DNA from: Caballeronia turbans
Lineage (GTDB): Bacteria > Pseudomonadota > Gammaproteobacteria > Burkholderiales > Burkholderiaceae
Direction: 5' to 3'
NCBI GenBank assembly: GCA_001544655.2
Contig: FCOD02000008.1
Location: forward strand, 62,001 to 126,000
Length of the DNA: 64,000 nt
Shown piece after piece: positions 1 through 37,474 of this stretch. The notes under the pieces are model-generated. The model ran no database searches. It was given only the letters and a program-made list of their open reading frames with translations, and had not been told where the DNA came from. The position numbers and the translations under genes were made by a program. Every line of letters begins with the position of its first letter. Position 1 is the first letter of the stretch.

Positions 1-669
1 TTCACGTTCGGCGCGATGTACGGCTTCTCGAACACGGCCGGCGCCTTCGCGGGCACGCCCAACACGACGGTCGGGACCACGACGACCCAGGGCTCGTCGC
101 GCGCTTACAGCTTCGGCCTGAACTACAAGGCCGGCCCGCTCGGCATCGGTGCGGCGTACACGGACATTCGTTATCCGACGGCTGCGACGCCGGCATTCAG
201 CTCCACGATCGCCAACATCAACACGACCGGGACGACCAACAACGCGAAGGATCTGCGCACGTTCGGCATCGGCGCTAACTACGCGTTCGGCGCGGCGACG
301 GTTTTCGGCCTGTGGACGAACACGCGCTTCGAGCCGATCGTCGGTTCGAGCTCGCGCCTGAACGCGTTCGACATCGGCGGCAAGTACGCATTCACGTCCG
401 CGATGACGGCCGGTCTCGGCTATACCTACATGGACCTGTACGACAATTTCAAGGGCCACTGGCACCAGATCGACGCGAGCTTCGATTACGCGTTGAGCAA
501 GCGTACCGACGTGTACGCGCTCGCGGTCTATCAAAAGGCGTCGGGGTCGAACAACGGCGTCGAGAATCAGGCGTCGATCGGTTCGTCGTCGTCGAGCTAC
601 TTCGGCACGTCGGGACTGGGCGAAAACAACCAGCTCGCGTTCCGCGTCGGCATCCGCCACAAGTTCTAA
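1..669 (+). CDS. Gram-negative porin, C-terminal part (5' end outside window)
   Basis: Outer-membrane trimeric beta-barrel porin that lets small hydrophilic solutes diffuse into the periplasm. The reading frame is open from base 1, so the signal peptide and first strands lie to the left of the window; 222 residues remain. What is visible is typical of the Burkholderia-type porins: alternating aromatic/glycine strands (YSFGLNYKAGPLG, GIGANYAFGAATVFG, AGLGYTYMDLYDNFKGHWHQ), a late strand FDYALSKRTDVYALAVYQKA, and a last strand GIRHKF that ends in the terminal phenylalanine needed for BAM-dependent assembly. A strong terminator follows 27 bases after the stop. The specific solute selectivity cannot be read from the sequence. 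Confidence 0.92.
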   Translation, partial: FTFGAMYGFSNTAGAFAGTPNTTVGTTTTQGSSRAYSFGLNYKAGPLGIGAAYTDIRYPTAATPAFSSTIANINTTGTTNNAKDLRTFGIGANYAFGAATVFGLWTNTRFEPIVGSSSRLNAFDIGGKYAFTSAMTAGLGYTYMDLYDNFKGHWHQIDASFDYALSKRTDVYALAVYQKASGSNNGVENQASIGSSSSSYFGTSGLGENNQLAFRVGIRHKF

Positions 670-34136: not shown

Positions 34137-34847
34137 TCACGCCGCAATCGCCACCGAATCCGCCGAATCGGCGCCGTCCGTCCCGATCGGCAAATAACGC
34201 CTGCCGACTTCCAGCAGCGTCGCACCGAATCCTTTCTTCGCCCGAAAATCCGTCCGCGCACTCGTCACCACGCGCGGCGACGCGCTCCATTCGATCTTCG
34301 CGCCGATCGCCACCAGCGCCTCGACGAGCGCCACATCCTCGCTCGACTCGAGCGGCGCAAACCCGCCCGCCTGCATGTACGCCTTCGCCGACACGCCCAG
34401 GTTCGCGCCATGAATATGCCGATGCCCGTCCGCGTCGGTGTACGTGCGTCCGAAGTGCTCGCGCACCGCGCCGATATGCGGCGACCAGTCGTGCACGCCG
34501 ATCACGCCGCACACCGCATCCGCGCAGCAGTCGAGCTGGCGCACGAGCCAGTCTTCGGCAACGGTCGTATCGGCGTCGGTGAAGGCGAGCCAGCGCGCGC
34601 CCAGCGCGAGCGCCCGCTCGGCGCCATGCGCGCGCGCCACGCCGACGTTGCGCGCCTCGATGCACCACACGTGCGCACCCAGCGCCCGCGCGATGTCGGC
34701 GGTTTCGTCGGCGCAACTGTCGGCGACGACGATCACGCACGCCGCCTCGCCGAGCAACTGATGATGATCCGCAGCGCGCCGCGCGGCCGCTACGCACGCG
34801 CCGATATGCGCGGCTTCGTTGTGAGCGGGAATGACGATGGCAAGCAT
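34137..34847 (-). CDS. Family 2 glycosyltransferase
   Basis: 236 residues. GT2 signature: MLAIVIPAHNEAAHIGACV at the N-terminus, VVADSCADETADIA, and the metal-binding AFTDADTTVAEDWL. GANLGVSAKAYMQAGGFAPLESSEDVALVEAL is the acceptor-side region. No membrane helices, so it is a cytoplasmic transferase of unknown acceptor. The ATG at 34847 has a ggag site 6 bases upstream. It is divergent from the UdgX gene with 199 bases between starts, so the LexA box there could in principle affect both. Confidence 0.85.
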   Translation of the reverse strand: MLAIVIPAHNEAAHIGACVAAARRAADHHQLLGEAACVIVVADSCADETADIARALGAHVWCIEARNVGVARAHGAERALALGARWLAFTDADTTVAEDWLVRQLDCCADAVCGVIGVHDWSPHIGAVREHFGRTYTDADGHRHIHGANLGVSAKAYMQAGGFAPLESSEDVALVEALVAIGAKIEWSASPRVVTSARTDFRAKKGFGATLLEVGRRYLPIGTDGADSADSVAIAA

Positions 34848-35007
34848 TTCGGCTCCGTGTGTAAGTGTGTCCGCAGGCAATCGAACGCCGCGATGGATGA
34901 ATTTCAGCAATGAGCGTTCCCATGTTTCAGCGCCCGCCACATCGGCGGTCAAAGGGCACGATCGTCGCGAAATAGTTGCCGGAAAGCGCCGCACATCGCT
35001 AGAATCA

Positions 35008-35023
35008 CTGTATGGATATACAG
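35008..35023. promoter_or_regulatory. LexA (SOS) box upstream of the UdgX fusion gene
   Basis: ctgtatggatatacag, with outer bases giving cactgtatggatatacagta: 17 of 20 positions match the E. coli/beta-proteobacterial LexA consensus tactgtatatatatacagta, including both CTG/CAG ends. It lies 23 bases before the ATG of the UdgX fusion, where a bound repressor would block transcription. Confidence 0.88.
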
Positions 35024-35046
35024 TACTTTTCTGATTCCGCTCGCCG

Positions 35047-36546
35047 ATGAAATGCGTCACCATCGACCCGTCGTTTGCTGCCTGGCGTTCCGAGGCGCGC
35101 GCGCTCCTCATGGAGGGCGCGCATCCCGCGGACGTGCAGTGGCGCGAAACCGATGCCTCGGCCACGGTGTTCGGCTCCATCGATCCGCCCGCGCCCGGCT
35201 CGGTCGATCCGAACGCGAAGAAGCCCGTGAAGGTCGCGCGCGAATTCCTCGCCATGCTCGAAACGGCGGCGTGCTACCGCGCGCCGGACCGCTGGCCGTT
35301 TCTCTACAAGGCGTTGTGGCGCTGGACGCAGGGTGATCGCGCGATCGCATCGTCGGATGACGGGGACGGGCATCGGTTGCGCCGGATGATCGAATCGGTC
35401 GAGGCCGAGGAGCGTGAGATGCGCAGCAAGCTGCGCTTCCGTCATCGCGATTCCTCGCTCGGGCCGCCCGAGTTCATCAGCTGGTTCGAACCGGTGCACG
35501 ACCTGCTTGAGCACGCCGCGATGCACTTCGCCACCCGCATGGGCAGCGCCACGTGGATGATCGCCACGCCGCACGGCGCCGCTTTCTGGGACGGCGCGCT
35601 GTTGCGCGTGGACCGCACGAGCGAGCCGGAGGAAAAGCCGATGGACTTCGGCGACACCGCCATGAGCGGCGAGGCGGTGAGCGGCGACGCCATCGAGGCG
35701 CTCTGGCTCGCGTACTACGAAAGCACGTTCGCGCCTGCGCAGGCGAACGCCGCCGAAATGGCGTCGCATATGCCGGTGCGCTATTGGAAAAGCCCGCCGA
35801 ACGCGCGCACCGATCCCGCGCTGATCTCCCGCGCCGATCCTTATTCGCGGCGCGACCGCCATCCGCGCAACGTGCCGCCCGAGATGGAAGTGACCATCAA
35901 CACGGATCTGGAGCCGATCAAGGGCACGCTGCTGACGGAGCCGCCGTCGCTCGACGCGTGCAAGCGCTGCGCGCTCTGGCGCAACGCGACGCAGGCCGTG
36001 CCGGGCGTCGGTCCCGCCGATGCGCGCGTGATGCTGGTCGGCGAACAGCCGGGCGATCAGGAAGATCGCGAAGGCAAGCCGTTCGTCGGTGCGGCGGGCG
36101 CGCTGCTCGACGAAGTCCTCGCCGAGGCCGCGCTTCCCCGCGCGTCGCTCTATCTGACGAACGCGGTGAAGCACTTCAAATGGGAAGCGCACGGCGAGGA
36201 ACGCGCGCATCTCGCGCCCGCGCAGCGTGAACGCGAAGCCTGCCGCTACTGGCTCGAGGAAGAACTGAAGCGCATCGCGCCGAAAGTCGTCGTCGCGCTC
36301 GGGGCGACGGCGTTAAAGGCGCTCACGGGGCATCGCACGGCGTTGTCCGAGTATCTTGGCAAGACCATCGAGCACAAGGGTCACATCATCGTGCCGACCT
36401 ATCACCCCTCGTATCTGATGCGCCTGACCGACGACAAAGTGCGCGCGGAAGTTTTCGGGACGATCGTCGAAGCGCTCGTCTTCGCGCAGCAGATCGCGGA
36501 CGGCACCGCAACCATCCGCACGCCGGTCGGGGACCGGACGCGCTAG
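35047..36546 (+). CDS. UdgX-family uracil-DNA glycosylase fused to a TIGR03915-type DNA-repair domain
   Basis: 499 residues, two domains. Residues 1 to about 270 match the TIGR03915/DUF4130-type domain (FLYKALWRWTQG, RFRHRDSSLGPPEFISWFEPVHDLL, WDGALLRVDR), found next to radical-SAM DNA-modification proteins. Residues 300-490 are a UDG: motif I MLVGEQPGDQED, FVGAAGALLDEVL, TNAVKHFKWE, and motif III TYHPSYLMR (His453). Cluster cysteines: Cys305, Cys308 (CKRC), Cys399. The R-loop, KRRIH in Mycobacterium UdgX, reads EERAH here, keeping the histidine (His388) that forms the covalent bond to uracil DNA. A LexA box sits just upstream, so SOS induction is expected. No radical-SAM partner is adjacent. 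Confidence 0.9.
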   Translation: MKCVTIDPSFAAWRSEARALLMEGAHPADVQWRETDASATVFGSIDPPAPGSVDPNAKKPVKVAREFLAMLETAACYRAPDRWPFLYKALWRWTQGDRAIASSDDGDGHRLRRMIESVEAEEREMRSKLRFRHRDSSLGPPEFISWFEPVHDLLEHAAMHFATRMGSATWMIATPHGAAFWDGALLRVDRTSEPEEKPMDFGDTAMSGEAVSGDAIEALWLAYYESTFAPAQANAAEMASHMPVRYWKSPPNARTDPALISRADPYSRRDRHPRNVPPEMEVTINTDLEPIKGTLLTEPPSLDACKRCALWRNATQAVPGVGPADARVMLVGEQPGDQEDREGKPFVGAAGALLDEVLAEAALPRASLYLTNAVKHFKWEAHGEERAHLAPAQREREACRYWLEEELKRIAPKVVVALGATALKALTGHRTALSEYLGKTIEHKGHIIVPTYHPSYLMRLTDDKVRAEVFGTIVEALVFAQQIADGTATIRTPVGDRTR

Positions 36547-36644
36547 ATGCAACAGGACGAAACAGGCGCAACAAGACGAAAGCGCCGTCAACGTTCCTGT
36601 AAGCCGCGCGTTATACCGGTGTCGCGCCGCTTTGGCGCTCACCG

Positions 36645-37160
36645 ATGGTCCCGACGACAACCTCCATGGCCGCTCTCCCGCTCGAAGAACTCCGCCGTCA
36701 AGAATCTAACGTCGCCCTCGTGCCGAAATCGGCCGGGCAACTGCAGACCGAACGCGAGCGCATCATCGCGCGCCTGCAAATCCTGCTGAACGTGACCATC
36801 GCCGTGGCGCTCGCGGGCGTGGCGCTCATCGCATGGCTGCCGTTCTCGCCGGTGCCGCACGAATTTCGCTTCGGCGCGCAGGAAGTGCTCGGCGTCGCGG
36901 TGTTCGCGTCGTGTCTGTTCATCCTGCACGAGCGCGCCGAACTGGAACTCGGCCTGTACGACTACGAACCCGTCGAGCAGACGACGCAAGGCGAATTGCG
37001 CGCGCTGCTGCATCGCGTACCGGAAGGCATGTCCTATCAGGACGCGCTCGCCGCCGACAAGCGCACGTTCGTGACCGGCGAAGTCGAGCGCATCCGCCGC
37101 CGCGCCGAAGCGTTCACGCCGAAGACGCTGCCCGCCGACGACGGCAACGCGGAAACCTGA
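36645..37160 (+). CDS. Hypothetical inner-membrane protein
   Basis: 171 residues (a start at 36666 would give 164). Two hydrophobic segments, ILLNVTIAVALAGVALIAWLP (about 46-66) and VLGVAVFASCLFILH (about 81-95), flank a short loop; the N-terminal helix (QLQTERERIIARLQ) and the C-terminal 75 residues (EQTTQGELRALLHRVPEGMS) are soluble. No family recognised. It is followed by a strong terminator and may be in the same transcript as the UdgX gene, 98 bases upstream. Confidence 0.65.
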   Translation: MVPTTTSMAALPLEELRRQESNVALVPKSAGQLQTERERIIARLQILLNVTIAVALAGVALIAWLPFSPVPHEFRFGAQEVLGVAVFASCLFILHERAELELGLYDYEPVEQTTQGELRALLHRVPEGMSYQDALAADKRTFVTGEVERIRRRAEAFTPKTLPADDGNAET

Positions 37161-37201
37161 GCACCCCGCGCCGCGCCAAGTCAACGAAAGCAGCACGAAA
37201 G

Positions 37202-37236
37202 CCGCCGCCTCGCCATCCCGAGGCGGCGGTTTTTTT
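37202..37236 (+). terminator. Rho-independent terminator
   Basis: Perfect 11-bp stem ccgccgcctcg / cgaggcggcgg, 6-base loop, then seven T. It ends the transcript of the membrane-protein gene. Confidence 0.93.
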
Positions 37237-37474
37237 ACATCGACGCTGAACGTCGCTCGCCTTGACGAGTGCCGCCGCGCCTCCTTCAATACGTGACAGA
37301 TGCCGCAACCGACGGTCAAACTGTCACGCTTCAGGACGCAAGCTGTGTCCATCGCGTGGCGCTTGCAGGCTATCCGCGCGACAGGCGCCCCGGGCATGAC
37401 GGGTGCTTGCCAAATGCGCGGCCGCCGCGATTTTGCGGACATCGAACGAGGCCACGCCACTTGCAGGAGCCAGG
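37237..37474. other. Intergenic region with a gtgacag/ctgtcac inverted repeat
   Basis: No gene supported. It carries the inverted repeat gtgacag (37293-37299) and ctgtcac (37321-37327), possibly an operator or weak hairpin, and the promoter of the GT9-like gene should be here. Confidence 0.35.

Follow-up and report, generated by a model that had tools for sequence, protein, structure and literature searches.

The locus analysed here raises two questions: whether a gene that fuses a UdgX-type uracil-DNA glycosylase to a TIGR03915 domain is controlled by LexA as part of the SOS response, and whether its product can still be expected to form the covalent adduct with uracil-containing DNA described for UdgX. 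The window, i.e., the whole stretch of DNA that was analysed (64 kb), lies on contig C29 of a 7.35-Mb genome (G000). The gene is called an orphan below, being unlinked to the TIGR03916 radical-SAM (rSAM) gene which accompanies its paralogue.

The box, the promoter and the fusion gene

The relevant features, all on the plus strand, are the following.

34976..35005, +, sigma-70-like promoter TTGCCG-18-TAGAAT (consensus match), ending two bases before the core of the box
35006..35025, +, LexA (SOS) box CACTGTATGGATATACAGTA, core 35008-35023, 15 of 16 specified bases
35047..36546, +, orphan TIGR03915-UdgX fusion gene, 499 aa (open reading frame, family matches, trees)
35059..35793, +, TIGR03915 / DUF4130 domain, residues 5-249 (family match), lacking the His123, Arg232 and Glu252 of rSAM-linked proteins
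35929..36471, +, UdgX-type uracil-DNA glycosylase domain (TIGR03914), residues 295-475 (family match)
36196..36210, +, R-loop EERAH, residues 384-388, where M. smegmatis UdgX has KRRIH (R386 = R107, H388 = H109)
36645..37160, +, gene for a 171-aa protein downstream of the fusion gene (open reading frame)
37210..37236, +, terminator-like stem-loop with T run, 3' of the 171-aa gene; a weak call (3 such sites against 2.6 expected)

The core of the candidate LexA site, CTGTATGGATATACAG (35008-35023), ends 23 bases before the ATG of the fusion gene at 35047, and the box as a whole (35006-35025) departs from the pattern TACTGTATNNNNATACAGTA, a consensus of our own with 16 specified bases, at only one of them. 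The first-pass annotation had placed a near-consensus LexA site here, 23 bases from the ATG; both position and spacing are correct, and the fit, at 15 of 16 specified bases, is better than it had claimed. Within the 64 kb this is the sole match to TACTGTATNNNNATACAGTA at three mismatches or fewer, none being found in 100 dinucleotide-shuffled windows; with its single mismatch, it is as good as the sites at lexA, uvrA and dinB of the same genome, and it shares the CTGT-N8-ACAG form with the lexA and recA sites there, better than chance would give.

The box also lies where LexA-controlled genes carry it, i.e., at a promoter, the latter being recognised by consensus match only: a single promoter-like match occurs in 34800-37300 (0.2 +/- 0.4 in shuffles), and transcription would be expected to start within the box. 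Of 30 Caballeronia orphan loci, 29 have an element of the form TTG-16..19-TA.A[AT]T ahead of the box; none of it is seen at the nine orphan loci of two other genera (g13 and g20).

The intergenic region is shared with a divergent minus-strand gene, glycosyltransferase-like by reading of its translation, which starts near 34848, about 160 bases from the box, and which is found in 26 of 31 named orphan loci. That the box serves this gene instead of the UdgX fusion was considered, given the short distance, and was rejected as hardly credible: the sole promoter-like match near the box points toward the fusion gene, and in g13 and g20 the box still stands ahead of the fusion though neither the divergent gene nor the 171-aa gene was found (0 of 9 loci for each) in the stretches examined. 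The 171-aa gene, present by tblastn in all 31 named orphan loci, possibly belongs to the same transcript as the fusion gene; its product matches no NCBIfam or Pfam family at E 0.001.

The fusion itself, as described in the first-pass annotation, is borne out, both domains exceeding the curated cut-offs (144.7 bits against 112.25 for TIGR03915 and 227.7 against 189.95 for TIGR03914). In the alignment to 6AJO (M. smegmatis UdgX) and relatives, the UdgX signature Q53, R107, H109 (given in the available part of PMC10359453) is present as Q334, R386 and H388; indeed, of the eleven residues that the UdgX papers name for pocket and loop, each has a retained equivalent (E52, Q53, D56, D59, F65, N91, K94, R107, H109, H178, R184). 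The likeness to the M. smegmatis enzyme extends to motif A (GEQPG) and to motif B (HPS....R), the latter without its SLL; the differences are the loop, which reads EERAH and not KRRIH, the fused TIGR03915 domain, and the loss of H109 in some orthologues. An AlphaFold2 model built with 29 orphan sequences has a mean pLDDT of 52.7 and a pTM of 0.40, with residues 124-324 below 50. No PADLOC family matched any of the three proteins given; relatives were found at two loci of the viral contigs scanned (UDG part only), and the 16 matches in phage records are partial, none spanning 80 percent of the query.

The sister copy and the reach of the predicted LexA control

The genome has two TIGR03915-UdgX copies, the window fusion and a second one that is absent from the first-pass annotation. 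The TIGR03916 radical-SAM family, which we take to be COG4277, has a single match, at C54:282531, behind a LexA-type site with no mismatch, and the gene right after it is the second fusion; the two TIGR03915 matches of the genome are thus this linked copy on C54 and the window gene, which sits away from TIGR03916 on C29. The linked copy looks like the counterpart of the COG1573-COG4277 operon, a case of the same gene family under LexA, for which SOS control is described in Bacteroidetes and, by its citations, also in Verrucomicrobia and Alphaproteobacteria (PMC8565304, available part). The window gene differs from that operon in being unlinked, in having no radical-SAM gene and in lacking conserved TIGR03915 residues, and the available part of PMC8565304 has no mention of an orphan paralogue. 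DUF4130, the same N-terminal domain as that of the window protein, is predicted in the available part of PMC3765255 to be an enzyme related to mutagenesis and is said to go with SplB-like radical SAM proteins and UDGs, with mention of neither a LexA site nor an orphan paralogue.

Genome-wide, TACTGTATNNNNATACAGTA is matched at 16 places with up to three mismatches, against five for the reversed pattern, and at nine places with one mismatch at most. By reading of translations, these sites precede imuA (no mismatch), dinB, lexA and uvrA (one each), and recA and a helicase-like gene (two each), lexA having a second CTGTN8ACAG site; by family search, sites without mismatch precede genes for a PA0069-family radical-SAM protein, a DUF2471 protein and the TIGR03916 radical-SAM protein. 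In beta-proteobacteria, LexA has been predicted to control lexA, recA, uvrA, dinB, imuA-imuB-dnaE2, splB and a helicase (available part of PMC3323433); the main text of that account uses neither the word uracil nor the word radical.

Some of the other sites deserve a separate remark. The PA0069-family gene starts 9 bases past the core of its site (L014, G000:C60:11870-11889) and is perhaps the splB of the published regulon; the DUF2471 gene (118 aa), which starts 33 bases past the core of its site (L009, G000:C46:28024-28043), could be one of hypA/hypB of PMC3323433; and a frame of 78 aa that matches no NCBIfam or Pfam family starts 17 bases past the core of a one-mismatch site (L011, G000:C50:197391-197410). 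Sequence around 15 of the 16 places was retrieved; three of these (L038-L040), with three mismatches each, have no gene assignment, and L007 has no clear gene.

Among relatives, the site is conserved before the orthologues. TIGR03915 is matched in 32 of 41 genomes of the genus Caballeronia, and the box precedes 39 of 39 orphan loci in three genera with 0-2 mismatches of 16, a count of loci that share descent and are not independent: it is found with 0 or 1 mismatch at 30/30 Caballeronia loci, including two broken genes (L094 and L096), and with 0-2 mismatches in g13 (3/3) and g20 (6/6), which are other genera of the family. Outside the box, the best match in the rest of the Caballeronia orphan loci has 5-8 mismatches. 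The named set gives 31 of 31 (18, 12 and 1 at 0, 1 and 2 mismatches); its 24 Caballeronia and 7 Burkholderia or Candidatus names overlap the 39 loci, with at least 21 repeats (identical proteins).

The rSAM-linked loci of the family have the site in 56 of 56 rows (34, 18, 2, 1 and 1 at 0, 1, 2, 3 and 4 mismatches), which are 55 distinct loci, our own being counted twice, and among which the broken operons L095 and L097 do not figure. The latter, in G026, shows no site better than 6 mismatches, and the stretch examined around the former, in G038, ends short of the site position. The broken orphan genes L094 and L096 retain their LexA sites (1 and 0 mismatches, respectively); a box can thus outlast its gene.

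A third UdgX gene of the genome stands alone (L178, G000:C72:280320-280937): its 210-aa frame has the loop KRRLH, no TIGR03915 match and no LexA site. Among UdgX genes without TIGR03915, CTGTN8ACAG was found in 0 of the 21 stretches searched (this gene and 20 relatives among the matches listed, the g20-type partial matches G230 and G260 being left out), and the best match there has 7-9 mismatches. All 20 readable members of this set, 19 of them relatives of L178, have KRRLH or KRRMH as their loop.

Beyond the family, three overlapping draws of genomes were searched for TIGR03916 above its cut-off: the class gave 7 out of 274, the order 13 out of 250 and the phylum 53 out of 299. In all, 44 loci were examined, two of them from the family of the window gene and including the best-scoring 27 further loci of the 53 phylum genomes. 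Of 17 same-class loci outside the family, 8 carry CTGTN8ACAG at a distance of 250 bases or less, and the other 9 lack it there; since more than half go without that motif, SOS control outside the family would be either not universal in the class or exerted through another motif. In another class of the phylum, 25 of 25 loci have GTTCN7GTTC or its complement, a direct repeat that is the alpha-proteobacterial LexA motif; it starts 26 or 27 bases ahead of the predicted start in 17 of them, and the remaining sequence of all 25 loci, about 98 kb, contains four occurrences. On these two counts (8/17 and 25/25), the TIGR03916 module appears to follow LexA in much of the phylum, even where the motif differs, in agreement with the reports from Bacteroidetes, Verrucomicrobia and Alphaproteobacteria (available part of PMC8565304).

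The novelty of this control, for which the first-pass annotation knew of no report, has to be divided accordingly. SOS control of this gene family is already known from other groups, that of the sister operon being published (PMC8565304, available part). For the orphan paralogue, none was found: the literature searched, which covers a minority of subscription papers, contains no report joining UdgX with LexA; what it has on UdgX together with SOS concerns other subjects by title; that on LexA and Caballeronia includes none on SOS by title; and the main text of two Caulobacter SOS papers is without uracil, glycosylase or radical SAM. What is new is an orphan lineage with the opposite conservation pattern, of which no description was found in the literature searched.

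Divergence of the orphan lineage

A tree of 122 proteins places all 44 orphans on a single branch (SH-aLRT 100), adjoining most linked copies of the family with a joint branch of 90; the tree program warns that long branches meet at this junction. The 78 linked proteins counted are 54 of the family and 24 distant ones; 16 of the 40 distant loci, in which the frame with the UDG hit has 380 aa or fewer, were left out of tree and residue counts, as was one linked row of the family of less than 400 aa, and the residue counts also exclude the broken copies L094-L097.

The two groups are opposed at three positions of the TIGR03915 domain: His123 occurs in 78/78 rSAM-linked fusions and 0/44 orphans, Arg232 in 78/78 and 2/44 (six of the 42 losses are gaps), and Glu252 in 78/78 and 0/44, the window protein having R, Q and N. 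The domain is nevertheless not falling apart in the orphans, since F131, W146, P149, F161 and W170 are kept in 44/44; the lost residues may be catalytic or partner-facing.

That the orphan is a decaying duplicate and its box a relic is very improbable. Motifs are altered in both domains and two copies (L094, L096) are broken, as decay would have it, but the median pairwise dN/dS is near 0.23, which argues against it: the 28 orphans compared give 0.23 and the 25 linked proteins (4 of 29 left out) 0.19, alike in both domains, over pairs with dS of 0.1-2 (3 of 378 orphan and 0 of 300 linked pairs dropped). Among members of the clade without H109, dN/dS is about 0.06 to 0.33; moreover, frames are intact in 25 + 3 loci, and three genera have the orphan. 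An intact orphan occurs in G016, which has no TIGR03916 and whose orphan protein has the same sequence as that of C. glathei DSM 50014, and in G015 and G038, where TIGR03916 is broken into pieces. Five genomes (G013, G019, G020, G025, G028) have the linked copy only.

In the glycosylase domain, the eleven residues are complete in the 54 linked proteins of the family (55/56 rows, one being gapped and our own protein counted twice), and among the 24 distant ones, five deviate or are truncated there. At the loop, linked proteins have K at 105 in 74/78 and R at 106 in 71/78 (window positions 384 and 385), against E at 385 in 35/35 distinct Caballeronia orphans. The nucleophilic H109 is kept in 27 of these 35 and replaced by Gln in four, Pro in two and Leu in two, the fewest changes that account for this being three (tree without the loop columns); D56, D59 and N91 are kept in 35/35.

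The other two genera depart elsewhere. All six g20 orphans (L162-L166, L177) have Tyr for N91, the uracil-reading Asn, Glu for D56 and Asn for D59; all three g13 orphans have Glu for D56 and Ala or Glu for D59. The TIGR03915 cut-off is missed by one g20 member, that of UdgX by one g13 member.

For the M. smegmatis enzyme, H109Q and other mutants are described as losing cross-linking and gaining ordinary UDG activity (available part of PMC10359453), and D59A, N91A and R107A as inactive, D56A being still active (available part of PMC10776899). With these mutants in mind, it is unlikely, though less so than decay, that the orphan is an SOS DNA-binding or scaffold protein without glycosylase activity. 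The N91 and D59 changes of g20 and the D59 changes of g13 fall on positions where Ala abolishes activity, the accompanying D56E on one where it does not, and the retention of the H178 equivalent and of C305, C308 and C399 is likewise in keeping with such a role; the presence of D56, D59 and N91 in every distinct Caballeronia orphan speaks against it.

A somewhat stronger case, doubtful as it still is, can be made for a spare, second SOS-induced cross-linking UdgX whose loop changes are neutral, given that the window protein has 11/11 key residues intact and that most Caballeronia orphans retain H109. Such a spare copy is difficult to reconcile with the uniform E385 of the Caballeronia orphans where most linked proteins have R, with Tyr at N91 in all g20 orphans, with the absence of H123 and E252 from 44/44 orphans, and with the threefold loss of H109.

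Proposed mechanism and its meaning

The reading that we prefer, and consider likely, is that the orphan is a LexA-repressed SOS paralogue which has drifted from the rSAM-linked UdgX fusion and acts without a radical-SAM protein. LexA would sit on the box just 3' of the -10 element, over the likely transcription start, and block the promoter; upon DNA damage, RecA-driven self-cleavage of LexA would free it, and the gene would be induced. The product would have separated long ago, as a paralogue, from the UdgX fusion that accompanies the TIGR03916 radical-SAM protein; it probably arose once within the family, where it kept the SOS switch and dropped invariant TIGR03915 residues together with the strict cross-linking loop. 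Once induced, it would most likely work without a radical-SAM protein, recognising uracil, a related base or an abasic site, and in several lineages suicide cross-linking may have given way to ordinary turnover or plain lesion binding.

The first-pass annotation had proposed LexA control and, from the covalent adduct of UdgX, a tie between abasic/uracil handling and DNA-damage stress; of the two, the first is supported. Conservation of the site, its geometry at the promoter, the regulon around it and the negative control set all speak strongly for LexA control of the window gene, which, as a prediction from sequence, is close to certain; covalent adduct formation by the orphan lineage cannot be assumed, the adduct function being not simply transferable to a diverged paralogue with EERAH in its loop, whose Caballeronia orthologues lost H109 three times and whose relatives in two other genera changed further pocket residues. 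The window copy may still cross-link, because all 11 pocket and loop residues are kept. A more specific proposal is advanced tentatively, as one that may well prove wrong: that a UdgX paralogue kept under LexA has left the radical-SAM pathway and is shifting from suicide cross-linking to turnover as a glycosylase or to the reading of another base, a natural analogue of H109Q in which the nucleophile has been lost three times.

The association, in the family studied, of the LexA site with TIGR03915-fused UdgX, and not with the stand-alone form, implies that it is the fusion, not UdgX itself, that belongs to the damage response. The natural Gln109 orphans carry a direct prediction, namely no cross-linking and ordinary UDG activity, because H109Q in the M. 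smegmatis enzyme exchanges the one for the other (PMC10359453, available part). The orphan has the look of a repair protein that is taking on another role while still under the emergency switch, and the paralogue pair, with the same switch and opposite loop conservation in one genome, offers a ready comparison on the purpose of cross-linking.
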